Source of the DNA: Neoscytalidium dimidiatum
Lineage: Eukaryota; Ascomycota; Dothideomycetes; Botryosphaeriales; Botryosphaeriaceae
Assembly: GCA_037367355.1 (NCBI GenBank)
Contig: CM074695.1
Location: forward strand, 2,914,001 to 2,978,000
Direction: 5' to 3'
DNA: 64,000 nt
Of the stretch, positions 27,401-46,616 are shown piece by piece. The stretch's first letter is position 1. Every line of letters starts with the position of its first letter. Made by a program: the position numbers and the translations under genes. The notes under the pieces are model-generated. The model made no database searches. It saw only the letters and a list, made by a program, of their open reading frames with translations, and was not told the origin of the DNA.

Positions 27401-30400
27401 CCCTCGTTTTCTGCTGTGATGACACTTTCGATTTCCAGGCCATGGGACGTATCTTCCTCGGTATTTGCCAAGTGGGCGCCTGGGGATGTTTCGACGAGTT
27501 CAACCGTTTGGAGGAGCGCATTCTGTCTGCTGTTTCGCAGCAGGTGCAGAATATTCAACTTGGCCTACGCAAGGGCGCTACGGACGAGAAGGCCCAGATC
27601 GAGCTTATTGGCCGCAACCTTCGTGTCGACCTCAATACCGGTCTTTTCATCACCATGAACCCTGGCTACGCTGGTCGTTCCAACCTTCCTGACAACTTGA
27701 AGAAGCTCTTCCGCAGCGTTGCCATGTCTAAGCCCGACAAGGAGCTCATTGCCGAAGTTATGCTTTATTCTCAAGGTTTCGCGCAAGCCAAGCCAATATC
27801 GGGCAAAATTGTGCCCTTTTTCGACCAATGCTCCAAGAACCTTTCGAAGCAAGCACATTACGACTTCGGTCTGCGTGCCCTTAAGAGTGTGCTCGTCAGT
27901 TCTGGCGGCCTGAAACGTGATCGTGTGGCGAAGGGAGATGCGTCTGAGACCGGAAATGACGAGGTCCTGGAGTCTCAGATCTTATTGCAAAGTCTACGTG
28001 AGACGGTCGCTCCCAAGCTCATCCAATCCGACGTAGAAACTATGAGGCAGATCGAGGACAATTGCTTCCCTGGCGTTGAGTATGTGCCCGCGCCTCTTGA
28101 GGAGCTTCAACAAGCAATTCGCGAAACAGCAGACGAAAAACGCCTTGTTGTCAGTGACAACTGGATGACGAAGGTTCTTCAGCTCTACCAGATCCAAAAT
28201 CTGCACCACGGTGTGATGATGGTTGGTTCGTCCGGTTCTGGCAAGTCTACAGCGTGGAGAACTCTTCTTCAGGCTCTCTACCGCGCCGAGGGTACCGAGG
28301 GTGTCTACCATGTTATCGATCCCAAAGTCATGTCGAAAGAACATCTTTACGGAAGTTTGGACAGCACTACGAGAGAGTGGACCGATGGTCTATTCACTAG
28401 CATTCTCCGTAAGATCGTAGACAACTTGCGTGGAGAAGACACCAAGCGCCACTGGATCATCTTTGATGGTGATGTCGATCCCGAGTGGGTTGAGAACTTG
28501 AACAGTGTGCTTGACGACAATAAACTGCTTACCCTTCCAAACGGTGAGCGTCTCAACCTTCCGCCGAATGTGCGCATCATGTTCGAAGTCGAGACTTTGA
28601 AATATGCTACGCTCGCCACCGTCTCCCGCTGCGGTATGGTCTGGTTCAGCGACGATACCGTTTCTACAGACATGATGATTTCCAATTACCTGGGTGATCT
28701 TCGCAACAAGCCTTTCGAGGACTTGGAAGACGACAGCGTTGCCCCCGGTGTCATGTCCCAGAAAGCGCTCCAGTTGCAGAGATCCGTCGCTGATTTGCTG
28801 GAGCACCGATTACTCAACGACGGTTTGGTTCGGAAAGCCCTCGACGGTGCGCGCAACTTCCGCCATATCATGGAGTATACCGAAATTCGTGTTCTTAACA
28901 CGTTATTTTCCCTGCTCAACAAGACTTGCCGTTCCATGCTCGAGTACAATGTCCAGCACCCCGATTTCCCGCTTGAGGAAGAGCAGATTGAAGCATTTCT
29001 GTCGAAGAAGCTGCTACTTGCACTTACCTGGTCATTAACGGGTGACTGTCCCCTGTCTGAGCGCAAAGAGTTCGGAGACATGGTCGCTGGCCTCAGCACT
29101 GTGGACACGCCTCCTCTCAGTGGTGGTACCTCGCTTATTGACTTCGATGTTGCTCTTCCCAGAGCTGAGTGGACCTTGTGGCAGAACCAGGTGCCCAACG
29201 TGGAAGTCAATACCCACTCCATCATCCAGACCGATGTTGTCATTCCGACCATAGATACCGTCCGCCATGAAGATGTTCTCTATTCTTGGCTTGCTGAGCA
29301 CAAACCGTTGCTTCTTTGTGGTCCCCCCGGTTCTGGTAAAACCATGACGCTCTTCAGTGCGCTTCGCAAACTCCCCAATATGGAGGTCGTCGGTCTCAAC
29401 TTCTCGAGTGCAACCACTCCAGACCTCCTAATCAAAACATTCGAGCAATATTGCGAGTACCGCAAGACCCTCAATGGCGTTATCCTGAGCCCCACCCAGA
29501 TTGGCCGCTGGCTTGTGATTTTCTGCGACGAGATCAACTTGCCTGCCCCGGACAACTACGGCACTCAGCGTGCCATTTCTTTCATTCGCCAACTGGTGGA
29601 ACAGAATGGTTTCTGGAGAACTTCCGATAAGAGCTGGGTCACCCTCGACCGTATCCAGTTCGTCGGTGCCTGTAACCCGCCCACCGATGCTGGACGTACC
29701 CCTATGGGTCTGCGCTTCCTCCGCCACTCACCTCTCGTCATGGTCGATTACCCCGGCGAGCTCTCTCTGCAGCAAATTTATGGCACATTCAACAACGCGG
29801 TGCTCAAGATCATCCCCTCTTTGCGTGGCTACGCGGAGCCACTTACTAAGGCCATGGTCCAGGTCTATTCTGAGTCGCAGAAGCGCTTCACGCCTGATAT
29901 TCAGCCTCATTACGTTTACTCACCCCGTGAACTCACTAGATGGGTCCGTGGTATTTATGAGGCCATTAGACCTCTTGAGAACCTCAGTGTTGAGGGACTC
30001 GTCAGGATCTGGGCCCATGAAGCTCTGCGGCTCTTCCAGGATCGTCTCATTGCCGAGGAGGAACGCAAGTGGACCGAGGAAGCTATCCACCGTGTTGCCA
30101 TGGAACATTTCCCAACTATTGAAGAGGACAAGGCGCTTGGTGGCCCAATCCTCTTCTCCAATTGGCTGTCAAAGAACTACGTACCTGTTGAGCGCGAGCA
30201 GTTGCGTGACTTCGTCAAGGCCCGTCTGAAGACTTTCTGCGAGGAAGAGGTCGACGTGCCACTTATCCTATTTAACGATGTTCTCGACCACGTCCTCCGC
30301 ATCGACCGCGTCTTCCGTCAACCTCAGGGCCACTTGATTCTCATTGGTGTCAGTGGCTCTGGTAAGACTACTCTGTCGCGCTTCGTAGCTTGGATGAACG

Positions 30401-33400
30401 GTCTCAAGGTGTACCAGATCAAGGTGCACGGCAAGTACTCGGCTGAAGACTTTGACGACGATATGAGGAACGTACTGCGCAGATGTGGTTGCAAGGGCGA
30501 GAAGATTTGTTTCATCATGGACGAATCCAACGTCCTCGATTCCGGTTTCCTTGAGCGCATGAACACGTTGCTTGCGAACGCTGAAGTCCCAGGTCTCTTC
30601 GAAGGTGACGAGTTCTCCTCGCTGATGACATCTTGCAAGGAAGGCGCACAGCGTCAAGGCTTGCTCCTGGACTCCCAGGAAGAGCTGTACAAGTGGTTCA
30701 CGCAACAGATCGTCAAGAACCTCCACGTAGTGTTCACCATGAACCCGCCTGAAGAAGGATTGTCTTCTAAGGCTGCGACATCTCCCGCCTTATTCAATCG
30801 TTGCGTTCTTAACTGGTTCGGTGACTGGTCTGATCAAGCTCTGTTCCAGGTTGGTACGGAGCTCACACAGTCAGTTGATCTTGACCGTGCAAACTTCAAG
30901 TCTCCAGACAGCATTCCCGTCGCTTACAGGGATCTCAATCTGCCACCCTCACACCGTGAAACAGTAGTCAATGCAATGGTGTACATCCACTACTCGCTGC
31001 ACAAATTCAATGGCCGTCTCAGGAAGCAACAAAACAAAGTTACGCACCTCACTCCTCGCCACTTCCTGGACTTCGTCGCTCAGTACGTCAAGCTTTACAA
31101 CGAAAAGCGTGAAGATCTCGAGGAGCAACAACGTCATTTGAACGTCGGCCTTGAGAAGCTCCGTGAGACAGTCGACAAGGTCAGCGACCTGCGGAAGAGC
31201 CTTGCGCAGAAGAAGGCCCAACTCGAGCAGAAGGATGCAGAAGCCAATGAAAAGCTCCAGCGCATGATTGCAGATCAGCGCGAGGCCGAGCAGAGGAAGA
31301 CCCATTCACTCGAAGTGCAAGCTGCCCTTGAGAAGCAAGAGAAGGAAGTTGCAGAACGAAGAGAGATTGTGCTTGGTGATTTGGCCAAGGCTGAACCCGC
31401 CGTCCTGGAGGCCCAGAAGAGTGTCAGTAACATCAAGAGGCAACATCTTACTGAAGTCCGTTCCATGCAAAATCCCCCTGCTGGTGTCAGGCTTGCTCTC
31501 GATGCTGTCTGCACACTGCTCGGACACAAGACTTCGGATTGGAAATCTATTGTCGCTATAGTGAGGAGAGACGACTTCATTACCAGCATTGTCAACTATG
31601 ACAATGAGAAGAACATGACCAAGAACCTCCGTGTCAAGATGCGTAATGAGTTCTTGAGCAAGGACGAATTCACATTCGACAAGGTCAACCGTGCCTCAAA
31701 GGCCTGTGGTCCCCTTGTGCAGTGGGTGGAGGCACAGGTCAACTACTCCGACATCCTGGACAGGGTCGGTCCGCTTCGTGAAGAGGTCGGCCAGCTCGAG
31801 GAGGCTGCTCTGCAGACCAAGGCCGAGGCACAGGCTATCTCCAAGCAGATTGAAACCTTGGAGAAGAGTATTGCCGCTTACAAGCAAGAATACGCAGCGC
31901 TCATTAGTGAAACCCAGGCCATCAAGGCTGAAATGAGCCGCGTCCAGTCCAAGGTCGACCGTAGCGTGCGCCTGCTGGACAGTTTGTCTTCCGAGCGTGG
32001 ACGTTGGGAAGAGAGCAGTAAGAGCTTCGAGACCCAGATTGATACCATCGTCGGTGACGTTCTTGTTGCGGCTGCTTTCATCGCCTACGGCGGTTACTAT
32101 GACCAACAATACCGTAAGGCCATGACGGAGGATTGGTTCCACATGATGCACATGTCTGGAATCAGCTTCAAACAGCCAAATCCCGTGACCGAGTACCTCT
32201 CCACAGCAGATGAACGTCTCAAATGGCAGGAGAACTCTCTACCAGCTGATGACCTCTGTACTGAAAACGCCATCATTCTCAAGCGGTTCAACCGCTACCC
32301 GCTCATCATCGACCCGTCTGGTCGTGTTACGGAGTTCCTGCAAAATGAGTGCCAAGATCGGAAGCTCACCGTTACGAGTTTCCTGGACGATTCGTTTACG
32401 AAACAACTCGAGTCTGCCCTACGTTTCGGCAACCCAATTCTCATTCAGGACGCAGAGCATCTCGACCCTGTCCTCAACCACGTGCTCAACAAGGAATATC
32501 AGAAGACTGGTGGTCGTGTTCTCATTCAGCTTGGCAAGCAGGAGATCGACTTCTCGCCATCCTTCAAGCTCTACCTCTCCACAAGGGACCCCTCGGCTAC
32601 TTTCGCGCCAGACATTTGCAGCAGAACCACTTTCGTCAACTTCACTGTTACGCAGAGCAGCTTACAGACCCAATCGCTTGCGGAAGTTCTCAAATCTGAG
32701 AGACCTGACGTCGACGAGCGCCGTTCCAACCTCATCAAGATGCAGGGCGAGTTCGCTGTCCACCTTCGGCAGCTCGAGAAGCGACTACTGCAGGCGCTTA
32801 ACGAGTCGCGTGGAAATATCCTCGATGATGACAACGTCATCGAGACGCTCGAAACTCTCAAGAAGGAAGCTGCCGAGATCTCAGCCAAGGTGGCAGAGAC
32901 TGAAGGTGTCATGACCGAAGTCGAGAACATCACCCTGCAATACAGGATCATTGCACGCTCTTGCTCGGCCATCTATGCTGTTCTCGAGCAGCTGAGACAC
33001 GTGAACTTCTTCTACCAGTTCTCCCTGCAATATTTCACGGACATTTTCGAGGCCGTCCTGCAGGACACGAAGAGAACTGCCAAGGACCTCAGCTACGCGG
33101 CGCGCATCGACCACATCATCAAAGAGTTGTTCATTGACACCTACCGTCGCACTTCCCTCGCCTTGCTACACAAGGACCGTGTCATGCTTGCGATGTTGTT
33201 AGCACAGGCAGCTCCTTACAAGATGGACAAATCGCTCATCGATGCTGTTCTCGACGAAGATTTAGTGCCAGTGGACGTTTCCACGGATCAAGATCGTAAG
33301 GATGAAGCAATGGCGCGTGTGGCCAAGCACAGGCTATTCAAGAATGAGCTCGAGAAGATCGATTCGGCAGCGTGGGAGACATTCTATTCAGAGGAACTCG

Positions 33401-34593
33401 CCGAGAACCACGTTCCCGCGGCCTGGCCCGAAAATACCGAGAAGTTGGATCAGCATCTGCGATCGCTCATGCTCATCAAGCTGTTCCGCGTCGATCGCTT
33501 CGTTCCGGCTGTTGAGAAATTCGTTTATGAGGTCTTTGGTAAAGACTACGCAGAGGTCACGGACGATCTGGGTGCCATTGTCAAGCAGGTTGGCGCTTTC
33601 ACTCCTGTTGCCCTCGCCTCATCTCCTGGCTTCGACGCTTCCTATAAGGTCGATAACCTCGTTGAGCGTCTGCACGTTTCGTGTACCAACATTGCCATGG
33701 GTTCGAACGAAGGTGTTTCGTCTGCAGACAAAGCCATCACCGCTGCGGCTGCGACTGGCAACTGGGTCATGGTCAAGAATGTCCACCTCGCTCCGACGTG
33801 GCTGCAGAGTCTCGAGAAACGTATCGAAAGTCTCAAGCCCCATTCCGACTTCCGCCTCTTCCTGTCCATGGAGACCAGCCCGAAGATTCCTGTCAACTTG
33901 CTCCGGGCGTCTCGTGTCCTGATGTATGAGCAGCCTGCCGGTATCAGGGCCAACATGAAGGACAGTTTGAGCCAGCTGAGCTCTCGCGCCCAGAAGCAGC
34001 CGGTCGAGCGCGCCCGTGTGTATTTGCTGCTTTGCTTCTTACACGCCGTCGTGCAGGAGCGTCTGCGGTACGCGCCCAGCCTGGGTTGGAAGGGCTTCTG
34101 GGAGTTTAACGACTCGGATTACGAGTGCTGCAGCACCATCATCGACATCTGGGTCGAGTCGGTCGCTCACGGCCGCACGAACATCGCGCCCAAGAACATC
34201 CCGTGGGATATGCTGCGCATCCTGGTCACGGAGATGTACGGCGGCAAGATCGACTCGGAGCACGACTTCCAGATCCTGACGGACCTCGTCACGAGCATCC
34301 TGGACCCGGCCGCGTTCGAGGAGGGCCACAAGATCGTCAAGCCCACGCCCGAAAACGAGAACACCAGCCTCGAGGTCCCGAGCGGAACATCGTTCAAGTC
34401 GTTCGTCGATTGGGTCAACGAGCTGCCGGAGCGCGAGCCGCCGACGTATCTGGGTCTGCCAGCCAATGCGGAGAAGTTGTTGTTGGTCGGTCAGGCTAAG
34501 ACCATGGTGGAGAATTTGAAGTTGGTGGCGGATTTATTGGATGAGGGTGAGCAGGTCATGGCGGAGGCGCAGGAGCAGAACGCGGCGGAGTAG
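21470..34593 (+). CDS. dyn1: Cytoplasmic dynein 1 heavy chain
   Basis: Two exons, 21470..21773 and 21830..34593, encode 4355 residues, close to the known size of fungal DHC1/NudA. The N-terminal half is the tail (dimerisation, intermediate-chain binding) and linker. The motor ring follows: AAA1 P-loop GPAGTGKT at about residue 1938, AAA2 GSSGSGKS at 2234, AAA3 GPPGSGKT at 2599, AAA4 GVSGSGKT at 2941. A coiled-coil stalk and microtubule-binding domain ([18 protein letters not shown] region) follow near 3170-3490, then AAA5, AAA6 and the C-terminal domain. AAA1-4 all keep intact lysines. It drives minus-end transport, nuclear migration and early-endosome motility in hyphae. The only intron is 56 nt near the 5' end (GTTCGT donor), and the frame across it reads [14 protein letters not shown]. 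No frame break is seen over 12.7 kb. Confidence 0.98.
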
Positions 34594-36181
34594 ATGGGCT
34601 GATGATGGTTACGATTGATTTCGGATATGAGAATTGGGGGTATTATGGGTGTATGAATGAAGAAGGGAAATGGATAAGGGTGTAACGATATGAGATGATG
34701 GGGAGGTTAAACGGGTTCAATGATGGAGGACAAAGGCTAGCCCGCTCTGCGGCGCACTCCAACTCTTTTTTTTCCTTACCGTCTTGCTTCCAATCTGTTT
34801 GTTTTTGCAGTATTCTTAGTTGGGTTCATAGAAAGGTTTATAGTATGGCGAGGCATAGATTGATTTTAATGTTCGTGTTTCGCTTCGTGTATAGCCTATC
34901 CATGTGCGGTATTGCGTGTGGCGTCGTGACGGCGTTGTGCCCTTATATTCCTCTCGTACGGATGTAGCTCCGGTTGTTCTGTTCCCATAAGATTAACCAT
35001 TGTACCCGAAGGGCTGGAATGGCTTAGATGTCAGAGAGTCGCAAGGAAGTAAGAATTTCCTGTATTGGGGCTATATCAAGAGGTGCTATGAGGAGTGAAG
35101 GAAGGAACGTAGAACGACGGCGTACATGTAGGTTCTTAGCTGCCACGTGACTTAATCCTTTGTACAGTTCAGTTGTGCAAGTTGGGATCGGGGGCATTTT
35201 CGTGGTGCTCTAGGTTTTATCTGTTTTTTTCATGGCCTCATCACACGCAAATCAGCTCGTCATCAGATTGCGGGAGGACAGACACTACACAAGAAATGCC
35301 ACAAATGAGAGTTCAATCCAGATACAGAGAGACGTGCATGGGCCCAGGGCCTCGGGAAGCCAGAAAGATTGATGCTCTAATAATCGTACGCAAGACACCT
35401 GTTATCCATTGACCCCATTGGTCTACGCACTCGCAGTGATAACACCAATTTTCACCTACATTTGACACTACACCAGTCCTCTTGAGCCCCTTTCAATGAG
35501 ATATTAGTCTAGTAGTCAGAAATACTAGAAGGGCGGTAGGGCTGATGCAGCAAGATGAGGAGAAAACACGAGGCCCGGCAAAAGATCCAGCATTTGCGGC
35601 CAGTCATCGGTCCCAGTGCTCGCACAGTCTATCATGACTTCGCGGTTATTTTTGCAAATAGTCCGTGAAGATCTAACGCTCTTCGGTTTACTTATCCTGG
35701 TATTGTACTGGCAAAAGTATGACGCCGCACTGACGATCAGTGCTGCTATAGCTCTTGACAGCTGGGGATTTGCCTCCGTTTGTGGATTATCCTATCGAAT
35801 TATTTCACTGGAGCATCGAGACATAAGTGATTTCCGTCCGAAAATCTGTAGGCTTTAAAAATAAGCCTCACGCTATTACCGGCTGTCAATTTGGATCTTC
35901 ACAGCTCAACTCCTCCGACCATATCTCGCGAAACCTTTGGACAGTAAGGAAAGCAAGATAATGGCGAGGGCGACAAGGCGTGAGTTCAAGACTGTGGGAC
36001 GTCTTAGTAGAAGATAGCGCAAGGGAGCCAGAATTCGTGGAGAAAGGAATCACTTGATGAAAAGAGAGTTTCAAGATAGAGTCGTCTACATGCATTTCAT
36101 GACTTCATTTGATAATTTACTGAAGGTGCTTGTGTCACCATTACTCCGCTTTACTCTTTCCAAAGATTTTCTGCGAAAACC
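34594..36181. other. Intergenic, start of accessory region
   Basis: Dynein 3' flank, then gene-poor sequence. An 80-residue open frame at 35616-35858 is hydrophobic in the middle but has no recognised motif. I make no call. Confidence 0.45.
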
Positions 36182-36712
36182 TTAGTATCGTTTAACGTCG
36201 CCGGCCACAAAGACCGATCTTCTCTCTTCTGCCTTGGTTTCATTTTCTATCACCGTCCCACCAATCGCAGGATGTCCATGCGGATAGGGTCCGAAATTGC
36301 CAGTGATCATCGAACCCTTGCCTCCGTGCTTGTTGCCCTTAATCAGCCGGTCGTTTTTGGATGGCCCCTTTCCGATACCCTTCGGGGCTTCCGTACCCTG
36401 CTGTGACGACATTGGACCGGCTGTCATAGCAACTAGAACGCCCACAGAAGCGTTTGGGCAGCTCCTGTCCAGGTTAGACACCCCACCGGCCATCTGAGAT
36501 GGCACCGGTGGCTTGTCCTGATCGGATGCCTTATCGATCGTCGGAGATGAGTTTGTCAATTGTTCTCTAGGTGGGTGTGGTATCGACTCTCTCGAAGATC
36601 GTTCGGACTGTTCCTTGTCAGACAGTTCGTCCGTCAGAGCATGAGGCGATGACGACTAATGATGTTCAGTACTTCGATGAATCATAACACTGGCACCTGC
36701 TTTACACACCAT
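36182..36712 (-). CDS. Cluster locus A: disordered protein with diverged C-terminal amyloid-like repeat pair
   Basis: Proposed structure: a first exon that is only the ATG (36712..36710), a 54-nt intron with GTGTGT donor and TAG acceptor, then 36655..36182, in phase, 158 residues. Residues 1-100 are Ser/Pro/Glu-rich and look disordered. The tail holds two repeat-like segments. One is at 109-122 (NKHGGKGSMITGNF), which fits the cluster's repeat in N, G and aromatic positions but has Met and Thr where the others have Gln and Asn. A second lies near 142-155, ending FVAGDV. The 33-residue offset matches the 31-32 of the sister loci. The tail also recalls the HET-s pattern of EER...V...G-[ND]-V, which is a resemblance only. 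No effector domain is present. The one-codon first exon is unusual and needs transcript support. Confidence 0.5.
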
Positions 36713-38189
36713 GCTTGAGAAGTAGCTTTTGTGAATTTCAGTATTCTTTCTTCCTTTTGATTCAGTCGAATACTGTGAAGAAAGGACTGATTTTCTCGTC
36801 TCTCAAGTCGCCCCGTGGTCTATTTATCACGAAGAATGACAAGAGCCGCACAAGAAACATGTAGAAATGAGCTAATGCAAAAGTATATGATGTAAGAGTG
36901 GCTTTTCGTCCATCACATTCCCTGATTACGGCAAGAGCATACGTTCAGTAAAGATAAAGTGAAAACCTATGGCGATTGGATTTCAGAAACAAGGGTTGCC
37001 GTCCGCGCAGATGCGTCGTATCACCCGCATTTGATGCTCATTGCCTTCGTGCTTCGGCGAATTTACTGTTTATAGAGTCATTAGAGGGGTCACATGCTAA
37101 TATGTAGAGCTTGTTAGTTGTGTATGGCGCTGGTGCTTCCTCAAGATTGGATGACTGCGATCCTCGGTCTGCATTCCTCACGCCGTTCAATACTTGCTCT
37201 TTCAATCCCAGCGCCCGCTGCCCGTCCCATCATGCATCGTGTCGAGTGTCGTGGCAGCTCAAGGGAGGTCGCACAGCTTTCGACATGGCTGGGGACGCAG
37301 TGGCCAGACTATGATCGAAAAAGCGACGAGACAGATCGAGTAAGGGACTGCGGGGTGAAGGGGGTGAAGTTGGCAGAGTCGAGGCTCTGCGGACGAAAGG
37401 GGGCCAAAAATCAACTGCGGATAGAGCAAGCCTTACACGTGATGCAATCGCGCCTGACTTTCTGCCTTAAGAAGGCAAAGCAGCCTTCCAGTGAAATTTG
37501 TGCACCACGCCAGCATCTTCGGAAGCTGCTGCATGAATGGCGGGTCTGTGTCCCATTTCCGCAATACCCACCAATCAGAAGGTGGCCACTGCACGGCATT
37601 CCCTGCTGCATACTTGCTGGCTGCGTTGTACAGTACATACGCATAGTTGCCCGACGATGTGCTCTGCACTCAAATTGCTCATGCTGCATGCTGCCAAACC
37701 GATATGACTCTGTGAGAAGTGTTGGTAAGGTTGTCAGGATGATTCTGACCGCGGTGGTCCATGACGTTTCGTCGTACTCGTGTCGTGCGACGTCAGATCG
37801 TATCGCGTGTCTTCGCGCCAGGCGCTCTTCCTCGGATGTTGCAGAAATCGTTCTACAATCGCTGCTCACGCGTACATCGCCAAGGCTGTGATATTCTCCT
37901 CTGCTACCGAGAGTTCCGAGAGACTGCCTGTGGGCCTCGAGTGATCAGATCGACCTTACTCATTTCAGGCCCTCTAGACCTCTTTACATCTACCCTGTAC
38001 GGATTCCGAATCTGATATTTTCTTTTTCTTTTTTCCGGTGAGAGACGAGACTTCTTGCAAAATAGCCTCAGCCTCGTTGCAGCCCTTACTCCTGTAGCCA
38101 AGCGTGCAAGAACCCAACGCTACTTACCCGAGGGACCATACTAGATCAACTTCCTACCTTGCGCTTTGCACGCTTACAAGTACATCGCC
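36713..38189. other. Intergenic with overlapping uncertain open frames
   Basis: A 257-residue plus-strand open frame (37118-37891; first ATG at 37124) overlaps a Trp/Tyr-rich minus-strand frame (37433-37669). Neither has a domain I recognise or convincing splice context, so I call no gene. Confidence 0.35.
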
Positions 38190-38864
38190 ATGAAGGTCTC
38201 TCCGAACCCTGGCAGGGGTTTGCTAGGATGCGGGCCGGGCGGCGAAAGTATCGAGAGGAGTACTGGCAGCACCATGTCCATCCGGCCGCCACCCACAGCT
38301 ACTCAAACACAGCCTCCAGCCTTTCCCTCGGACACCAGAGCTGAGAAACATGAAAAAGCTCCAGATGCACAACAGGTATATTCCGATATGAGCCTGGAGG
38401 GCTCCAAAATAAAGCCAATTCGGCGGCAACTCTATGGAAGAAACATCTATTGCTGATTGCGAAAACAGATTACTATCACATGCCCCAAAGCAACTGCGTA
38501 TGTGGACACTCTACCGACCCGGAACACCAGCAATTCAAGTTGCTCAAGCCAACAACTATTCAGCATAACTTCTCATGACGGAGCGAGGGAATTCGATTGT
38601 GAGGACGACAGCACTACATTGAATCGCAACGAGCTACGGTCCAATCATTCGTCCTTATCCGAATCCGCACCAAGCCGAGAATACACGAATAATATTGCGT
38701 CTGGGTGCGGCATCCAATTGAATGGCAATTTTGGAAGCCGCGAACCAGACGCGCCATATTTCTCACGCTCTGTATGGCGCGGCAACCATGCAGCTGGGGA
38801 AGGTCCTCAAGTCAACGGGGATGTTTTGGATACAAGCGCGTTCTGTTCTATTTTCTTGAATTAA
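38190..38864 (+). CDS. Cluster locus C: protein with C-terminal pair of Q-[ILV]-N-G repeats, no effector domain
   Basis: Two exons, 38190..38375 and 38469..38864, give 193 residues. The 93-nt intron (GTATAT donor, branch-like CTGAT, AACAG acceptor) is a multiple of three and removes an in-frame TGA at 38454-38456. Residues 1-130 are Ser/Thr/Pro-rich and disordered-looking. The tail has repeats at 137-150 (NIASGCGIQLNGNF) and 168-181 (NHAAGEGPQVNGDV), 31 residues apart. A short hydrophobic end (AFCSIFLN) follows, as in loci D and E. The pair is proposed to be an amyloid-type self-assembly motif. Lacking the SesA-type domain, this copy might act as an adaptor or inhibitor, or be a partial duplicate. 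Confidence 0.6.
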
Positions 38865-39747
38865 TGGAACATACTAAATTTCACATTTGTGAAGGGTTAG
38901 GAGTATGTTGATTAGACGGTAAGAGTTGGAGAAGTGGTGCGGATGCTAGCAATGGGTCTCAATAGCTGCCCTGTACAGAGTCCCAGTGCGGGAGAGTGGT
39001 CATCACTTGCGGCAGACACGGCTAAATTTGCTCATATTATATTGAGAATGTGTGTCATATTATAAGTGTGACGCACATATTACGTTTCTGCTGCAGATGA
39101 TTGCGTGGCCTTTTTTTTTTTAAAAAAAAAAAAGAAAAAAAAACCTCTCAGCCTTGCCGTACTGGTGCGGCCTCTCAATTTTCTGAATGCCGGACGTGAG
39201 GATAGCTCACACTGATGCAGGCGGTAGCTCTCCTTCCATGATTAGCTGCAACCGTCGTATAGGTTCATATTCCTCGTTCTTGGTATCAATCCAACACCAT
39301 GGCTCCTGGTATCGAGTATGCACTTGCCAGATCCTTTAACAAGGAGCATAGTGTGATCATGATCACACCATGCGTTATCACATGGCAGCTATGCTTATTC
39401 CCTGATCAAGCCCGTGAAGCATTATCATGTTGCCTAATACTCATCTGACCCCCCTTGTTGAAAGCCACGGACATTCTGGGTCTGGAGGACTACGCCTGAT
39501 CCCTAGGAGGCGCACAGCCAGCTCATCAGACGGATAACGCAATTTGACGCGGCAGCCTAGAGGGCTGACTCCTGCGCCCATCTACTCGCGGGCCCGCAAC
39601 TTCTGAACTTTATCTTACAATGCAAATTCGCGAGGGGATAAGTCCGCAAATATGGCCTATCCGGGAATAAATATTATCTTGAGTTCATTTTGCAACTCGT
39701 TTACCTCCCCTTTTGCACGAAGCTCTGATGCCAATTTCGATGGCCCG
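38865..39747. other. Intergenic with homopolymer and palindrome
   Basis: Contains adjoining T and A runs (about 39112-39141) and a near-perfect 28-bp palindrome at 39346-39373. No gene supported. Confidence 0.5.
39346..39373. repeat. 28-bp palindrome
   Basis: A perfect 18-bp core (GTGTGATCATGATCACAC, 39351-39368) is extended by four matching bases on each side, with one mismatched pair. It could be a dimeric-factor binding site or a chance element. Confidence 0.7.
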
Positions 39748-40859
39748 TCAAGGAACGGTAGTTCTGCGAGAGAAAAGCAAAGCTGCAAAATGCGCTTCCA
39801 GAACGTCTCCATTCACTTGGTTGCTCTCATCCTTTGCGTGATTTTGACTCCACTGGCAGTATGTAAAAGAATTTTCTACTGCATCCGCCTTTCTCCCAAC
39901 ACAGCCATTAATTTGTATGGCTCTATCGGAAGCCATGTTGTCTGACCATGAACGCTTCGGAGAGGAAGGTTCGTTTGCCAGGGTACACTCCGAAAATGTA
40001 TCGTAATCGCTATCGCTTTCTGAGTTATTACCGTTTGGGTGTGGAATAAGAACTCCAGAGTCGACAACGCCCTCGGAATACCCATCTGTGTTCGGGGTCT
40101 TAGGGCAGTTGCCGTTCGGGGCATTCTGTGATTTCTCTTGGATGGCTCTCGCTCCGAGAATCACGAGCTGTGGAAAGTTAGCGTTTGTAATTTGAATTTG
40201 AGTGAAAGCCCGAAAGAAAGGGTCATATTTAATACCTCATTGTTGCCTTTATTACTCTTGCGCATCTTGCACTTTCTATTTGAGCAGGATGTTTTGCAGA
40301 AAAAACTCGTGTTGGATCTTATTTCGCCGCCTTCTCTCACGAGTCCACTGCAGCTCTTTAAGGCGCGCTCGATGTTCTCGACCTGACCTTGAAGCTGCGG
40401 GATTCCATCCTCAAGGTTGCGGTCGATCCGACTTATAAGACTGCCGTAGGTGCCGAGAATGCATAGGGTAAGGCAGCTTTTGTTGCGCTCGAGGTCAGCA
40501 AAGCCTTTCGCGATTGCCTCCTCTGCCTTGCTCCACTGCCAGGCTTTCAGACACTTTTTCCACCTCTTCGTAATATCTCCGACGTAGCCTTCCCTCAAGG
40601 CTTCCTCAATGCTCTCAGTGGCTTTGACCAGGGCATGGATATGTGACGCCACAATTTCTGACCGCGATAGTTCGTCGACGGATTTGACTAGGCCAGCTAT
40701 CTGGAGGAGCTGGTGTATTTCGCCCTTGTATCTGCCATATTGCTCGCCGGCTTTCTCAACGTTGCGGTAGAGTTCATGTAGTTTGCAAATCAGTGTAGTG
40801 GTGTACTGAACGAGCTGCGAAACGCTGGCGATGGCCCCGATGACTTCAAGGCCGGACAT
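39748..40859 (-). CDS. Cluster locus D: SesA-type (HeLo-like-related) domain protein with C-terminal repeat pair
   Basis: Two exons on the minus strand, 40859..40236 and 40167..39748, give 347 residues. Residues 1 to about 170 (MSGLEVIGAIASVSQLVQY..., then GFADLERNKSCLTLCI and LEDGIPQLQGQVENIERAL) match the helical N-terminal domain found on fungal NACHT and P-loop NTPases (SesA family, Pfam PF17107). That domain belongs to NLR-linked immunity and cell-death architectures. An acidic linker follows, then repeats at 285-298 (NMASDRAIQINGCV) and 317-330 (NHAKDESNQVNGDV), 32 residues apart, and a hydrophobic end (HFAALLFS). No NTPase domain is present, so this looks like a stand-alone effector whose tail would be templated by a partner. 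Intron 68 nt, phase 0. This is the most complete member of the cluster. Confidence 0.78.
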
Positions 40860-42044
40860 GGCCCCCTAAGGATTTTGGAGGGTGAGAGAAAGACAAGGTA
40901 CGCGTTTTCAAATTTAGGTGGGAGGCGTCGCCACTTCAACCTTCACCTCGTTGAAATCGGCGAATCAGGGGTTTGGGATCTCGCCCGGTCTGTGAATCCA
41001 CCAGTTTCCGGGCACTCGACATCCAACGAATCAGCAAAAGTTTCTTATGCATCAGGTTACTCTTTTGTGAGGTGTAACAGTCAAGTGAGCTTCCCAAGGC
41101 GAAACGACGAGTTGCCGTGCGGGGTTTGATGCCGGACGGCCTGCAAGCGGCCCATTGTGGACAGAAACCGAGTACGCTGAGAGTTCCACTGCATGATGCT
41201 GAGCATGCGTCGTCGTGACCAGGCAGAACCCTGGGCCTTCCTACCGATTATTGGAAATCTGATCGTATCAAAGGACGAGGATGCTGTTCCTCAGCCGCAT
41301 CATATCACCCCATCGCGAGGCTGAACTTCAGCCTCGCGAGCCGAGATCGCGCCCGACATGGCTGCCTTGCCATATACTTTTGTGGGGCCTCAGGCGCCCG
41401 AAATAGGATGAAAGTGGCGTTCAATAGAAAAAGAATACAATCTTCGCCTATCTTCCTGAATTGAGGAGAATGGGTGTGCTTGAATATGTGGGTCTAGAGC
41501 ATCATGACCGAGGAGTTGAGAGTATCCGAGGAAGTGACATCCGAGAGTTTTAGACATGCATAGTGGCAAAGTGTTGACCTCCTCCTCCCCGGTAAAACAT
41601 TTGATAAAATTAACGGATGAGCAGTGTGCATGAGAGGCACGGAGATTCTGGTTGGCAACTCTAAATCTTGCCCCTGCAGCTGCAAAATCCATCTGCTACG
41701 TACCCATTTTGCCAAAATTTATCAATCCTAGATCTTGTGCCTTGCTCCGAAACTTATTGCAAAGCTCGCGAGGAATACTGTGCATCGAGTTTGTGCTCGG
41801 CCCGCATTCCTTAGGCAAAGAGAAACCGGGTGCTTGTGGCGGCCAATTACCGTCAATGCGATGCGCTGCATTACTTCCTAAGTTTAGAACTTGCAGGCCA
41901 ATATAGATTCCACAGGCGGCAAAGAAAGGAATGCAGATGTGCGCAAACGTCTGCTTGCGATCGAGATGCAGATTTCAGACAAGGGATTAAATGAATGGCG
42001 GAGTAACGTAATTTGACATTCAGCTTTTCATCGTTCGTTACGAG
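40860..42044. other. Intergenic, with a 27-bp palindrome
   Basis: 5' flank of locus D and unassigned sequence; no gene supported. A perfect inverted repeat lies at 41313-41339. Confidence 0.45.
41313..41339. repeat. Perfect 13-1-13 inverted repeat
   Basis: Arms TCGCGAGGCTGAA and TTCAGCCTCGCGA flank a single C. It is strong enough to extrude as a hairpin. A related segment with a changed centre occurs in locus F (near 45809-45831). Confidence 0.85.
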
Positions 42045-42480
42045 TTGATCTCGACGGATCCTTTTCGCAAGATTACCCAAACTTTTGGAGGGATTTCCAC
42101 TCTAGAAGGCGTAGCTAAACTTAAAGATAATCTCAACGACCTGATTGTGAGATTGCTGCGCGGATGCAGCAGACAAGAGAACACTCGACAGCGGGGCCAA
42201 TCATCTATTCAGGCACACCGCCTACCGTAGCCAACGAAAAAGCCATGTAGAAGCTAAATGTCAACAACAATACATCGCGGCAGGAGTCCTCCAGGTCAAC
42301 GGTGTCGTTACCGATTACACCAGCGAGGTATACTATTACAGCCACTGCCAATATATCAAGGGACCAATCCAGTCAGGTGAACGGTGTGGTCAGGCTCAGG
42401 AACTCACAGAATGTTGAGCCTGTCCTGTACCCCACGAGCAATCCAGGACCAAACCACTCTTCGTAGGAACCGAGTTCCAG
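42045..42480 (+). pseudogene. Cluster locus H: decayed SesA-repeat gene
   Basis: The frame at 42045 contains TLEGVAKLKDNLNDLIVRL and then LRGCS, which aligns with the end of the SesA-type domain in locus D (LEDGIPQLQGQVENIERALKSCS) and locus E. Downstream, two repeat remnants occur: one near 42269-42310, whose N-terminal half and Q-V-N-G half lie in different frames, and one at 42350-42391 (NISRDQSSQVNGVV). Multiple frame changes and the lack of a start domain indicate a pseudogene. An undetected set of introns is the less likely alternative. Confidence 0.6.
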
Positions 42481-43142
42481 TATTGAAAATCGGCAACCCA
42501 CGCAGCGGACTCGGCCGACAAAACACCAAAATTCTAGCTGGTCAACTAAAATTCGCCAGGGCCACCGTCAAAGTGCCAGGGGTTGATCACATCAGAAGGA
42601 TCCATCTCATTCGACGTCCAAGCAGCAGCACTCTAGTGTAACTTCTCTAAATCCGGAAGACCATCCTTTCGAAGATTCTAAATAGTTCAAGGATCTTATC
42701 CAAACAAAGTTCGGAGTGCATGACTCAAATGATGATGCTATGTCTTAGTCTATTAGTTATTTACATGGATCGCATTGAGACGCATTATTTACAAGTCTTC
42801 CTTTTACTGTACATATTTCGAAGCGGCCATAGCCACCTGTTTGAATCAATAGACAATTGGTTTCCAGACCCTATTCCACTGCATCGTCGGAAACGTAATA
42901 TTTACAAGTCAAGAAGAAGAAGAAGGAAAAGGGGGGGGAAAGACTTATTGCTCTTCGCTCAACCTCCGGTAGCCACCTGCACAAGCCTGTGAGTCTTCCG
43001 TAGAAGACACACTGGGTATGGGCGGCTCTGCAACACACTCATATGCCCGTGAGAGCATCTTCTAAAACCATCTGATTTACCATAATGCCGCGCAGGCTAC
43101 CGACATGATACCCGGTGCATACGAGGTACTTCTTTGCATCCT
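42481..43142. other. Intergenic
   Basis: No supported gene. A GAA-type microsatellite lies near 42912-42925. Confidence 0.45.
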
Positions 43143-43757
43143 TCAGCATAATACGACCCAGCCGGCGATGGCTGTGGCCAACACCGGCGCGAATATAAGG
43201 ATAATCGTGAGCATCCTACGTGGGCAGGCATCAAGGCTAGCCCATGAGATGCCGACGAGGTCCTCCGCCTCCCCAATGGCGGCTTTCCAGGTCTTTGAGC
43301 TTGAAGTGTTCGGGCCCGTTTTCCAACTCCTCGTCACTGTCGGACGAGGGACCTTCGTCTGTCGATGGTCTGCTTGTCGCGTCGCTCGGAGTGGGAGAAC
43401 CAGTTGCCAGAACAAAGTGTGGGACGTGCGAGACCGTCTGCCGGTACGGAGGGAAGGGCGACGTGTGGACAACGATGCGGATGATCAGGTTGATTGTGAG
43501 GTTTTGGACGTGCTGTTCGTTGTAGATGCGCTCTACGTCGCCGGTAGTGCTGGGTTGGCTTCTATCATTGGAAGGAATGTTAGGAACCAGAGGGCTGGAG
43601 GAGGGATAACCGCGTGGGAAGGCGCATGAAAAGATAGTATGGCGGCCGCTCACCCTGCATAGACATTGCCGTTGACCTGGGAAGCGTGGCCAGCGGCCTG
43701 GTTGTGGGCATTTTCCTGCCATGGTCTCGGATTGGTCGGGATGGGGTTAATGCACAT
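43143..43757 (-). CDS. Cluster locus G: single-repeat protein with C-terminal membrane segment (frame uncertain)
   Basis: Exon 1 (43757..43654) starts MCINPIPTNPRPWQ and carries one repeat at residues 19-32 (NQAAGHASQVNGNV). Exon 2 starts at 43561 (GATAG acceptor, in phase) and reads GSQPSTTGDVERIYNEQHVQ, then an acidic linker. The simple frame ends at 43237 after 142 residues. The overlapping frame from about 43300 to 43143 reads KTWKAAIGEAEDLVG and ends in a clear membrane helix (MLTIILIFAPVLATAIAGWV). That matches the layout of locus F, which has TWSG and then a membrane segment. Either an intron or a frameshift joins the two frames, and I could not resolve which. The 3' boundary given includes the membrane frame. 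Confidence 0.55.
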
Positions 43758-44743
43758 CACAGCGCAGATGTGTCTCACGACGGGGGCAATGAGCTACATA
43801 TAGGGCGGGGATCAACTACATACATCTGAGCTCCCATACGCCAGAAAGACGCCCCAGCGGTAGTTCACTCGCCGGTGCCTGGTGGTATAAAGTCAAAAAG
43901 GGCAAAGGAATGCCCAGCACCCGTTACACTCAGCCACAAGTAGCTGGAACGCCTAATTTACCATGTCGGGCAAGGACGAGGTCTGGACAGAGAGATTGGT
44001 GCTCGTGCCTCTGGCCTTTGGGCGCTTAAGATGGCCCAGCCACAACCAGAGACTGAGGCTTTTTTTTTTCCCTGATTATCAGTAAGCGCCCTGTGGACTT
44101 TCGACACTTGTGAGGTCGGAAGGAGGGGCCCGCAGAGAGCTCGCCGACGGCTCAGAGTGTGACGCTTGCAAATTTAGCCGCTCTTGACCCAGTTTTCTAC
44201 TTTAGTAGAGCCCCGAAGGATTCCGTACATATCTAGCGCGTGGGTAGCCCATCGTTCTGTAGATAGGCTGTGGCCGAAGCAAGCTGCTGCGGCGAGAAAT
44301 GATACCAGTACTTGATGATTTTGAACGCTCGCAGCCCAAGGCGTACTTTCATGAGCCACAACGGGCGGTGCAACTAAGACATTGCGCAGCCGCTGAGACT
44401 GTTGAATTCGGTTCATGTCGGAAGGACGTTGAGGTGGACCGGTGAGGGGCTACTGTGGTGGAGGACGATAGCGGGGCGGTGCACAACGCCCGACAGCGGA
44501 CGGCTAGCCAGCCTGACAAATAAACTTCGTCAACCGGAGGCCAATAAAACAGCGCAGAATGCAATAAAGTTATATGCTTGAGTCAGCTGGATGTGTCAAA
44601 TGACACGAAGGTGGATACCTTCGTACTTAACCAAACCTGATCTCAGAAAGACTTTGCCCTCCTTGCTCCTTTTTACTTGTACAAAGCACTATCAAAAGGC
44701 GCCATAAGATGCTGCTAACAATACAAGGATCCTTCGAAGCCGT
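43758..44743. other. Intergenic
   Basis: No gene supported. The 5' flank of locus G could hold an additional upstream exon. Confidence 0.4.
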
Positions 44744-45568
44744 TCATCCCCTCACGAAGAAGAGAGATACAAAGTTTGCGTCAATAATATCGCCGTTTAT
44801 CTGATTACTCTGGCCGTGGGCTTTATTGTTTCGCCAATGCGTGTAGGTAATACACCCCTCCCCGGGCGTTTGACTTCCAACACTACCATTCAACTGTATA
44901 GATTGTTCCGACGCCGTGTTGTCTGTGTATATGCGAGTGTTGTTTGATGCGACTTTGAGCATGTCGTTCTGGTTCCCGTACTGATTCGTGCGCCCGCTCA
45001 TCTCATGATAAGCGCATGCGTTCGAGGAAAGTTCCAGGTCAGATGATGTCTGCTCTTCACACGAAGTGTCCAAGTCCGAGGGCCGTACTCGCATGGGTAC
45101 GAGAGTCGAGCCATCATCGACGGCACATGCTCCTGTAATTGCAAGCTGCCATTTGGATTAGCGATATCCTCTGAGGTTTGGTGTGACGGTTGGGTTAAGG
45201 TGTTCCCCCCCCTTTTTTTTTTTGGCTTTGGAAATCCGCTAAGTCCATACCTGGTTATCTTCTCTGCTGGAATCTGATCGGAAACTCGCGGCAGTTGATC
45301 CGGAAAGCGTTCGCCTAGGCGTCTGGCTATCCGTTGAGATATCCGAGCAGGCTCGAAGACTTCTTTGGATTTTCCCGACTTGATCCTGAAGCTCTGGGAT
45401 TCCTTTTTCTAATCTCGAGTCCACCTGCTGGATTGAACTACCGAGGTTCCCTAACAAAGCAAGGGTGAGGGTGCTTTTGTGACGCTCCAAATCCTCGAAA
45501 CCCTTCAAGACTGCGGCCTCGGCGCTTGGAAATTTGATACCTTCAACACGACAAATATAGCCGCCCAT
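44744..45568 (-). CDS. Cluster locus E: 5'-truncated SesA-type domain protein with C-terminal repeat pair
   Basis: Exons 45568..45251 and 45145..44744 (minus strand) give 239 residues from the first in-frame ATG. Residues about 10-85 (AEAAVLKGFEDLERHKSTL, then LEKGIPELQDQVGKIQRSLRACS) match the C-terminal half of the SesA-type domain of locus D. The N-terminal half is missing, and upstream sequence switches abruptly to a poly-C run, a CA repeat and the very GC-rich locus F. Repeats lie at 182-195 (NTASEQSIQLNGSV) and 213-226 (NKAHGQSNQINGDI), 31 apart, followed by NFVSLFF. The gene may be a truncated, still-expressed repeat donor or a pseudogene; the chosen start is provisional. Confidence 0.55.
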
Positions 45569-45603
45569 CAAGTTCGCTCCTTTCCATTCGCCACCGCTTC
45601 CTT

Positions 45604-45634
45604 CCCCCCCCCCCCCCCCCAACGCACACACACA
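45604..45634. repeat. Poly-C (17) plus CA repeat at a composition boundary
   Basis: Seventeen C residues (45604-45620) followed by an (AC)n tract separate AT-balanced locus E from GC-rich locus F, exactly where the SesA-type domain of E is cut. It is a candidate recombination junction, or a place to suspect misassembly. Confidence 0.8.
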
Positions 45635-45637
45635 GCT

Positions 45638-46616
45638 TCAGCCGCCCGCTCCCGCCGCCCACGGATCCTGTAGGCCACCGCCGCCGCTCGCCAGAGCGGG
45701 AGCGCCACCAGAGCCGGTCGAGACCATCCGGGGTGCCCAGCTGCCGCTCCTCGGCCGATGATGATCCGCCGACCCCGGCGGTGGAGCCTCCGGCGCGTCC
45801 GCGAGGCCGCGCTTCAGCCTCGCCTCGGCGGTGAAGTACAGCGGCAGGGAGACGGCCAGGATGGCGGCGACGAGCAGCACGCCGACGATGGCGGACAGGC
45901 TGCGCGGGTGCTTGCAGTAGAAGTGCACGGCGGCGTGCTTGACGCCGGACCAGGTCGGCGCTCGTGCTACTACCGCTGCTGGCGGCGGCGGCGGCGGATG
46001 GGGTCTCGATCCGTGCTCGTCAACTGCGAGTTGGGAACGGGCCGGTGAGGGTTGCCGGTGAGGCCGGTCGTCGCTCTCCTCGTCGATCTGCTGGGCGGAG
46101 GGGGAGGAGGAGGCGCGGTTCCTGCTGCAGGCGCTGGTGCAGCGGGATGGCGGGTGCGAGGAGTCGCTGGGCAGGTACAGGAACTTGTCGATGTGGAACG
46201 TGTTGTCGTGGTGTCTGCGCTGACGCTTAGCTGCTCGGTTCTCAAAGCGAGTTTCCCGCGTGCGTGATGGTGGCCGGTTACCGAGAGTCGTAGACTTTAC
46301 CGTTGACCTGCATTGAACTATCCCGGGCCACGTTCGCGGTGTGCTGTGTCTCCTCGTGCGTGTTCATATTGGCCGCATCGGTCTCCGGGGAGTGCATGGT
46401 GCAGCCAGATCTGATCAATCGGGAAGTGCAAGAGGTCTGACAAGGCTGAGGGTGGCCGAAAAGGACCATATGCCATAAGTCATGGGCGGGTCCAGGGTAA
46501 TATGTATGCAGATCAACCACACTGCTAGAGTTCATAGACCGTGGCGGCGGCAGTGCGCTTTCTTGGGCACGCGGCTCAGCCTCGTTCCAGTCTAAACTGT
46601 TTACCCTGGACCCCAT
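45638..46616 (-). CDS. Cluster locus F: single-repeat protein with C-terminal transmembrane segment
   Basis: Exons 46616..46282 and 46214..45638 (minus strand) join in phase to 303 residues (MGSRVNSLDWNEAEPRAQ...). A single repeat sits at 95-108 (NVARDSSMQVNGKV). The following KVYDSRHHDNTFHIDKF is parallel to locus G, where NVYAG precedes its exon 2. A Pro/Ser-rich linker leads to one membrane segment at about 218-240 (SLSAIVGVLLVAAILAVSL), flanked by basic residues, then a disordered tail. Exon 2 is strikingly GC-rich compared with its neighbours. A membrane-anchored protein displaying the cluster's repeat would suit a receptor or target for the soluble C-terminal-pair proteins; this is an inference. 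An upstream exon is possible. Confidence 0.55.

Follow-up and report, generated by a model that had tools for sequence, protein, structure and literature searches.

Fungal amyloid signalling relays are described as pairs of an effector and a NOD-like receptor (NLR) (PMC4518210, PMC9815663, PMC5485727). In the HET-S/NWD2 pair, the executioner carries a double copy of the amyloid motif at its carboxy terminus and the trigger a single copy at its amino terminus (PMC4518210, PMC9815663), and the amyloid-signalling literature that includes these two reports has HeLo-type domains kill through membrane damage. HET-s-type pairs consist of two carboxy-terminal pseudo-repeats on a small HeLo, HeLo-like or sesA protein, with a loop of 6–18 residues after the 21-residue motif; HET-s-related amyloid motifs (HRAMs) have hydrophobic residues at positions 5, 8, 10, 16 and 18 and glycine at 19, prefer R or K at 15 and show charge complementarity between the first and second repeats (r1 and r2), and the Pfam profile PF11558 matches only 38 of the 155 published pairs (PMC4518210). 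The PP motif is a single copy with an NxGxQxGxN core, on HELLP, SBP and their NLR (PMC3321046, PMC5485727, PMC9815663). Sigma (sesA/sesB/het-eN), with the consensus GSGxQF plus GGTQN (PMC3321046), and the Fusarium motif GDQN, with the consensus NxxxGxQYxxxGxGDQNxVSxxxxQxN on a SesA protein (PMC12261475), are each paired with an NLR or a probable NLR. Outside the fungi, the cytosolic cRHIM of Drosophila PGRP-LC is thought to seed IMD amyloid (PMC9496462), and bacterial BELL proteins combine a predicted membrane helix with a carboxy-terminal amyloid motif (PMC7889193). Here we analyse a window of 64,000 nucleotides from Neoscytalidium dimidiatum (contig CM074695.1, C1:2914001-2978000; genome of 43.76 Mb in 40 contigs), in which two unrelated protein types within one gene cluster share a conserved motif, present twice at the carboxy terminus of SesA-like proteins and once at the amino terminus of small proteins for which a membrane helix is predicted.

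The SesA-like and membrane genes are interleaved between 38 and 46 kb of the window. They are listed below with their repeats, in window coordinates; homologous proteins are numbered P0001–P0010, and 'outside profile' denotes a profile made from repeats of other genomes, defined further on.

39748..40859, minus strand: 40-kb SesA-like gene, intact, 347 amino acids plus stop (exons 40236–40859 and 39748–40167, 68-nucleotide intron; from gene model and homologues)
39898..39939, minus strand: r1 of the 40-kb gene, NMASDRAIQINGCV (pattern and outside profile)
39802..39843, minus strand: r2 of the 40-kb gene, NHAKDESNQVNGDV (pattern and outside profile)
45638..46397, minus strand: 46-kb membrane gene, 230 amino acids plus stop (exons 46282–46397 and 45638–46214, 67-nucleotide phase-2 intron; from gene model and the layout of P0009)
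46293..46334, minus strand: single amino-terminal repeat (r0) of the 46-kb gene, NVARDSSMQVNGKV (pattern and outside profile)
45845..45901, minus strand: predicted membrane helix of the 46-kb protein, residues 144–162, SLSAIVGVLLVAAILAVSL (Kyte–Doolittle mean 2.59 over 19 residues)
44744..45547, minus strand: 45-kb SesA-like gene, truncated (SesA-like domain short of its first 103 or so residues, intron position and both repeats kept)
44879..44920, minus strand: r1 of the 45-kb gene, NTASEQSIQLNGSV (pattern and outside profile)
44786..44827, minus strand: r2 of the 45-kb gene, NKAHGQSNQINGDI (pattern and outside profile)
43237..43757, minus strand: 44-kb gene as modelled (exons 43654–43757 and 43237–43561, phase-2 intron directly after the motif)
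43662..43703, minus strand: single amino-terminal repeat of the 44-kb gene, NQAAGHASQVNGNV (pattern and outside profile)
42269..42391, plus strand: 42-kb remnant with two copies, of which the first needs a frame change (pattern and profiles)
42350–42391, plus strand: second copy of the 42-kb remnant, NISRDQSSQVNGVV (outside profile, 15.6 bits)
38190..38864, plus strand: 38-kb tail gene as modelled (exons 38190–38375 and 38469–38864)
38691..38732, plus strand: r1 of the 38-kb gene, NIASGCGIQLNGNF (pattern; outside profile only 6.1 bits)
38784..38825, plus strand: r2 of the 38-kb gene, NHAAGEGPQVNGDV (pattern and outside profile)

That the two protein types share the motif is solid. A six-frame scan of the window with N-x-[AS]-x5-Q-[ILV]-N-G-x-[VIF] gave 9 gapless matches, all within 38691–46334, a tenth copy (core 42292–42309) fits only across a frame change, and no match arose in 30 window shuffles (order-2 Markov); the original prediction, made from this DNA alone, had counted the same ten copies, one across a frame change. 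Its spacing of 31–32 residues between the repeats of intact pairs is likewise borne out at 32 (40-kb gene), 31 (45-kb) and 31 (38-kb), and across 7 of 7 tails the period is 30–32, which is 9–11 residues past a 21-residue motif. The diverged pair that it placed at 36182–36655 (minus strand) is not supported, there being no match at E up to 5 even with a profile that includes the window copies.

This first profile was made from repeat pieces of the window and of homologues (the copy on contig C4, described below, being absent from it). Because it contained window copies, we built the outside profile from the 8 tail repeats of four SesA-like homologues beyond this genome (P0002, P0005, P0006 and P0008). 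Its null is a best domain per shuffle of 4.8–10.3 bits in 15 window shuffles, with a second null of at most 9.8 bits in 76 loci around NLR genes (257,532 bases). The outside profile scores the r1/r2 pairs at 31.1/36.8 bits (40-kb gene), 17.8/27.2 (45-kb) and 6.1/18.4 (38-kb), the single copies at 21.0 (46-kb), 20.2 (44-kb) and 16.6 (P0009), and the second 42-kb copy at 15.6; the first 38-kb repeat therefore lies within the null on this test, though it fits the pattern without gaps. Because our repeat alignments take Q-[ILV]-N-G as their anchor, constancy there is partly chosen, and the outside profile is the guard against this. With the glycine taken as HET-s position 19, the 14 tail repeats have an aromatic residue at 5 in 14/14, N at 8 in 12/14 and A or V at 10 in 13/14, with Q16, I/L/V17, N18 and V/I/F21 each in 14/14 (positions 16–19 partly by the anchor). 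The core alone, searched as a DNA pattern genome-wide, is no commoner than its reversed control (632 matches versus 629) and is therefore uninformative.

The 40-kb gene encodes a SesA-like domain, a linker and two tail repeats, an arrangement that P0002, P0005, P0006 and P0008 repeat. These four, of 340–355 amino acids, are the tail-bearing members among 8 SesA-like homologues found; the other four, of 212–224 amino acids, stop near the exon-1 boundary. Of 21 candidates in a search with the P0005 tail, P0005 and P0006 alone were recovered; the search is insensitive, having missed P0002 and P0008. The mean pair identity of the five proteins is 55% in the domain, 54% in r1 and 57% in r2, against 29% in the stretch after the domain, 26% in the linker, 22% in the spacer and 32% at the end, so that both repeats are conserved to much the same degree as the domain, which answers the check on conservation in orthologous loci that the original prediction had set for itself. 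Named species with homologues of the cluster proteins are Lasiodiplodia theobromae and Diplodia corticola (P0005 and P0006 among the tail-bearing proteins) and Botryosphaeria dothidea, at about 57–60% identity, a level that points either to a fungus distinct from all three or to fast evolution of the cluster genes. All three species belong to the Botryosphaeriaceae. In the searches made, the motif was found only in this family and in further database sequences. Both layouts, the double carboxy-terminal and the single amino-terminal, recur in predicted proteins outside this genome.

The domain is called SesA-like because Pfam gives no SesA and the profile comparison is short, in register and weak. 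Searches of the window open reading frame (ORF) and of P0001–P0008 gave nothing above cut-off for PF17107, PF17111 or HeLo, only PF17111 being listed, at E 0.3. With hhalign, run against the SesA-type domains that NLRs of this genome carry, residues 1–33 align weakly with residues 1–33 of a Pfam-SesA NLR domain (E 6.8e-4, probability 27%), and a D-L-E-x-x-K-S block weakly with a PigL_N-like NLR domain (E 1e-3, probability 21%). The full-length model of the SesA-like protein is poor, and its domain fold had no match in the PDB. Within the cluster the domain is intact at the 40-kb locus only. It was not found in the 38-kb gene, whose exon 2 and that of the SesA-like genes are homologous, and three loci (45-kb, 42-kb and 38-kb) resemble duplicates at differing stages of decay. 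Of the multi-copy SesA-type cluster originally proposed, the multiple copies and a SesA-like partner stand, whereas a single intact domain remains and the SesA label falls below the Pfam cut-off.

Absent from the original prediction, and to us the most interesting part, is the single amino-terminal copy carried by small proteins in which a membrane helix is predicted; the exon encoding that helix, behind the 46-kb copy, was likewise no part of that prediction. In the 46-kb gene the motif sits in the 116-nucleotide exon 1 and the hydrophobic helix in exon 2, with some 68 residues past the predicted helix. Two homologues of this family were found. P0009 (Botryosphaeria dothidea, NCBI-annotated) is a single protein that spans motif to helix, and as an annotated prediction it supports the 46-kb gene model; P0010 has the helix, with the motif absent from the protein as predicted. 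The 46-kb protein and P0009 are 74% identical in the motif exon and 60% in the helix exon, and the helix region is the best conserved part of the family (42/52 residues). A further member lies elsewhere in the genome.

C4:3523656-3524220, minus strand: unlinked paralogue of the 46-kb gene (helix-exon match, E 3e-12)

A motif copy stands in the DNA upstream of its helix exon, and its exon 1 can be modelled at 116 nucleotides in the same phase as that of the 46-kb gene. The copy scores 18.4 bits under the window-inclusive profile (17.7 as a domain score on the spliced protein) and 9.8 bits, within the null, under the outside profile. The C4 membrane protein may partner the SesA-like genes of the cluster from another contig. 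For the 44-kb gene, a hydrophobic stretch follows downstream (43146–43214, minus strand) in a different frame, and the search gave no significant match to a paralogue, so its kinship with the 46-kb gene is inferred from layout.

Starts and introns of the cluster genes are models, checked from outside for the 46-kb gene only, through P0009; the 40-kb model is consistent with full-length homologues. For the 46-kb, C4, 44-kb, 40-kb and 38-kb genes, exons were joined across the modelled introns with bases unaltered, and the 44-kb and 38-kb genes, which are possibly broken, were left unmended in these joined models. The 45-kb and 42-kb copies were analysed as pieces, except in a tblastn alignment that spans the 45-kb intron. 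So modelled, the 40-kb, 46-kb and C4 genes each read through from start to stop codon, and their introns are ordinary. At 45593–45640, adjoining the 46-kb gene at its 3' end, is a long run of C/G homopolymer next to which the first half of the 45-kb gene is missing; this could mark a break point or a weakness of the assembly. Weak matches to the membrane family with internal stops occur at C3:877717-878007 (plus strand, E 0.012) and C10:1417450-1417848 (minus strand, E 0.034); these are perhaps decayed copies of the membrane gene, and as sequence matches they are too weak for use.

Compared with HET-S/NWD2 and HRAM1–5 as described, the cluster has in common two carboxy-terminal repeats on a small effector, a period of about 31 residues, a third-arch glycine, one amino-terminal copy on a partner, clustered genes and the predicted strand order within each repeat (PMC4518210, PMC5485727). 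The tail repeats follow the HRAM architecture, two at the carboxy terminus with a loop of 6–18 residues, on a domain that is only SesA-like. Unlike the printed HRAM, hydrophobic residues occupy position 5 in 14/14 tail repeats, 8 in 1/14, 10 in 13/14, 16 in 0/14 (always Q) and 18 in 0/14 (always N), R or K stands at 15 in 3/14, and the core hydrophobic positions are 5, 10, 17 and 21, with Q16 and N18 constant. Because the third strand has a shifted hydrophobic face, we do not file the motif as an HRAM despite its HRAM layout. Also unlike those systems, no NLR partner was found, the repeats lack in-register charge complementarity, and PF11558 had no match in 9 window ORFs (E up to 1) or in P0001–P0010 (E up to 10 or 1, with HMMER filters).

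With PP the motif has the Q-hydrophobic-x-G core in common (PMC3321046); unlike PP, it has few of the glycines and asparagines that flank the core in the pseudopalindrome (G two before Q in 2/14 tail repeats, N four before Q in 1/14), and the tails hold two copies. Like sigma and GDQN, it is a carboxy-terminal amyloid-type motif on a SesA-domain protein; unlike them, its consensus is different, and theirs come with an NLR or probable NLR partner. Identity with sigma, PUASM or GDQN was set aside on comparison by eye with the printed consensus, no profile being used (PMC9815663, PMC3321046, PMC12261475). The motif, aromatic-x2-N-x-A-x5-Q-[ILV]-N-G-x-[VIF], is on this sequence comparison likely to be a new family within a known kind of signalling. 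The original suggestion of a new or poorly described motif agrees with its position outside the definitions of HRAM, sigma, PP, PUASM and GDQN as printed in the sources available to us. Searches of open-access text met neither the motif nor its membrane partner, figures and supplements, the usual home of motif logos, lying outside those searches.

Structure prediction for the 40-kb tail with AlphaFold2 places strands at residues 11–14, 17–18 and 23–30 and again at 43–46, 49–50, 55–58 and 61–62, the second set being largely the first shifted by 32 residues, with block values of the predicted local distance difference test of 78–82 over most of both repeats. We take this, with moderate confidence, to predict two equivalent β-rungs. 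Among 5 Foldseek matches to the tail model, the two best are HET-s amyloid entries (E 2.1 and 4.3); a sequence search of the PDB gave only three designed helical proteins, at E 0.14 or worse. Charges of r1 and r2 in register comprise 2 opposite and 4 like pairs, and one residue out of register 8 opposite and 2 like.

As in the described fungal pairs, the motif at the carboxy terminus of an effector (40-kb and 45-kb genes) equals that at the amino terminus of a partner in the same cluster (46-kb and 44-kb genes). With one copy on the proposed seeding partner and two on the effector, the arrangement matches r0 versus r1–r2 of the HET-s family. There is, in our judgement, an even chance that the cluster encodes an amyloid relay of HET-S/NWD2 type whose SesA-like effector is seeded by a membrane protein and not by an NLR. 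In such a relay the membrane protein would lie in a cell membrane, by its predicted helix, with its amino-terminal motif in the cytosol. A trigger would gather several of these proteins, and their single motifs would stack into a β-arch or β-solenoid seed. This seed would then template the two SesA-like tail repeats, predicted by AlphaFold2 to form two rungs, into the same fold, and the converted tail would activate the helical SesA-like domain, as for HET-S and HeLo-type domains, leading to membrane damage and death; the occasion might be, for example, fusion with a non-self partner or infection. A fuller version, which we hold only tentatively and at less than even probability, is an NLR-free fungal immune or allorecognition relay, in which the cytosolic amino-terminal seed of a single-pass membrane protein converts a two-repeat SesA-like killer, the motif being a further amyloid family.

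The closest functional parallel to this proposed mechanism is PGRP-LC/IMD, in which the cytosolic amyloid motif of a membrane receptor seeds a soluble partner (PMC9496462). Unlike the 46-kb protein with its short stretch past the helix, PGRP-LC has an ectodomain that binds peptidoglycan and works in the animal NF-kappaB pathway (PMC9496462); the parallel is one of mechanism only, and no sequence relation is expected. Fungal amyloid signalling has so far been described, in the sources available to us, as a relay from NLR to effector, and a membrane partner would, if real, make the seeding half exchangeable. The relay would then start at a membrane and would offer a ready two-gene test. Intact, truncated and orphan copies stand side by side in one cluster, which bears on the origin and death of amyloid motifs, and profile searches whose starting point is an NLR or a Pfam effector domain could overlook systems of this kind.

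Several observations weigh against a membrane-seeded relay, and they bear on different alternatives. The described fungal relays pair their effector with an NLR, and such a partner had been expected here too. A classic motif-bearing NLR could exist unseen, in an unread or undetected locus, on a far upstream exon, in an assembly gap or through loss in this strain, with the membrane proteins as side components such as decoys or scaffolds; we consider this unlikely. Matches to the NLR ATPase profiles NACHT (PF05729, 20), NPHP3_N (PF24883, 63) and NB-ARC (PF00931, 1) make 84 places in 58 loci, a lower bound. Of these loci, 54 were read together with 900 or more bases of upstream DNA (at least 1,400 bases in 38, less than 1.4 kb in 16) and four were left out (C12:1142675, C4:2908949, C9:855571 and C12:1601981), which leaves the unseen NLR some room. 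The motif was at none of the 54 loci read out of at least 58, the best score being 9.8 bits, at null level; the strict pattern had no match in 61 loci scanned, and the profile gave null-level scores in 76. Whole-genome protein searches with the tail or the amino-terminal exon returned cluster genes only, such short queries being insensitive, as seen for the amino-terminal exon from its missing the C4 copy. The nearest NLR match is about 3.2 kb beyond the window end and about 19 kb from the cluster. Its proximity favours the unseen NLR, as do two PP matches on another contig.

C1:2979719-2982604, minus strand: NLR frame of 961 amino acids with a fused SesA domain and matches to NPHP3_N/NACHT and ankyrin (Pfam)
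C9:2836078-2836149, minus strand: PP-motif match, PF17046 (Pfam)
C9:2837498-2837557, plus strand: second PP-motif match, PF17046, 1.4 kb from the first and on the opposite strand (Pfam)

The 961-residue frame has its own SesA domain and contains no copy of the motif, which speaks against it as the missing partner. The C9 matches show that a known amyloid motif is detectable in this genome; they are near none of the 58 NLR loci, which slightly lowers our confidence in the relay, and either an NLR was missed there or a PP pair may exist without an NLR of the families searched. Amyloid formation itself is a prediction, with weak evidence for the fold, and the repeats, without in-register charge complementarity, have many conserved polar residues (N8, Q16 and N18). 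The motif might then be a non-amyloid homotypic binding element, recruiting the SesA-like protein to the membrane protein through strand pairing or a folded interface without polymerisation. We think this rather unlikely, since the two in-line copies, their near-fixed period, the Q/N core and the glycine of arch type resemble a β-arch, and the AlphaFold2 tail model has two equivalent predicted rungs. The roles might also be reversed, with the small membrane protein as executioner, as BELL proteins may be, and the SesA-like protein as sensor or trigger. The strong conservation of the helix region between the 46-kb protein and P0009 fits this, as does the BELL combination of predicted helix and amyloid motif; in BELL proteins, however, the motif is carboxy-terminal (PMC7889193) and here amino-terminal on the membrane protein, and in HET-S/NWD2 it is the executioner that has the carboxy-terminal double copy and the trigger the amino-terminal single copy, so that a reversal seems improbable. 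Highly improbable, in our view, is a cluster of mostly decayed duplicates whose remainder has no present function in this strain. The truncated 45-kb gene, the 38-kb gene without a SesA-like domain, the frame-changed first 42-kb copy and the out-of-frame 44-kb hydrophobic stretch all point that way, but the 40-kb, 46-kb and C4 genes are open as modelled and the motif is kept elsewhere in both families.

Across the window, the gene features are fungal, with short introns. The cluster is preceded by a long ORF and by a faint further copy of the motif, also additional to the original prediction.

21754–34593: ORF of 4,279 amino acids, which we take to be a dynein heavy chain
35280–35324, plus strand: possible relic copy of the motif, RHYTRNATNESSIQI (ORF E 0.0096 with the window-inclusive profile; under the outside profile 7.3 bits, which is null level)

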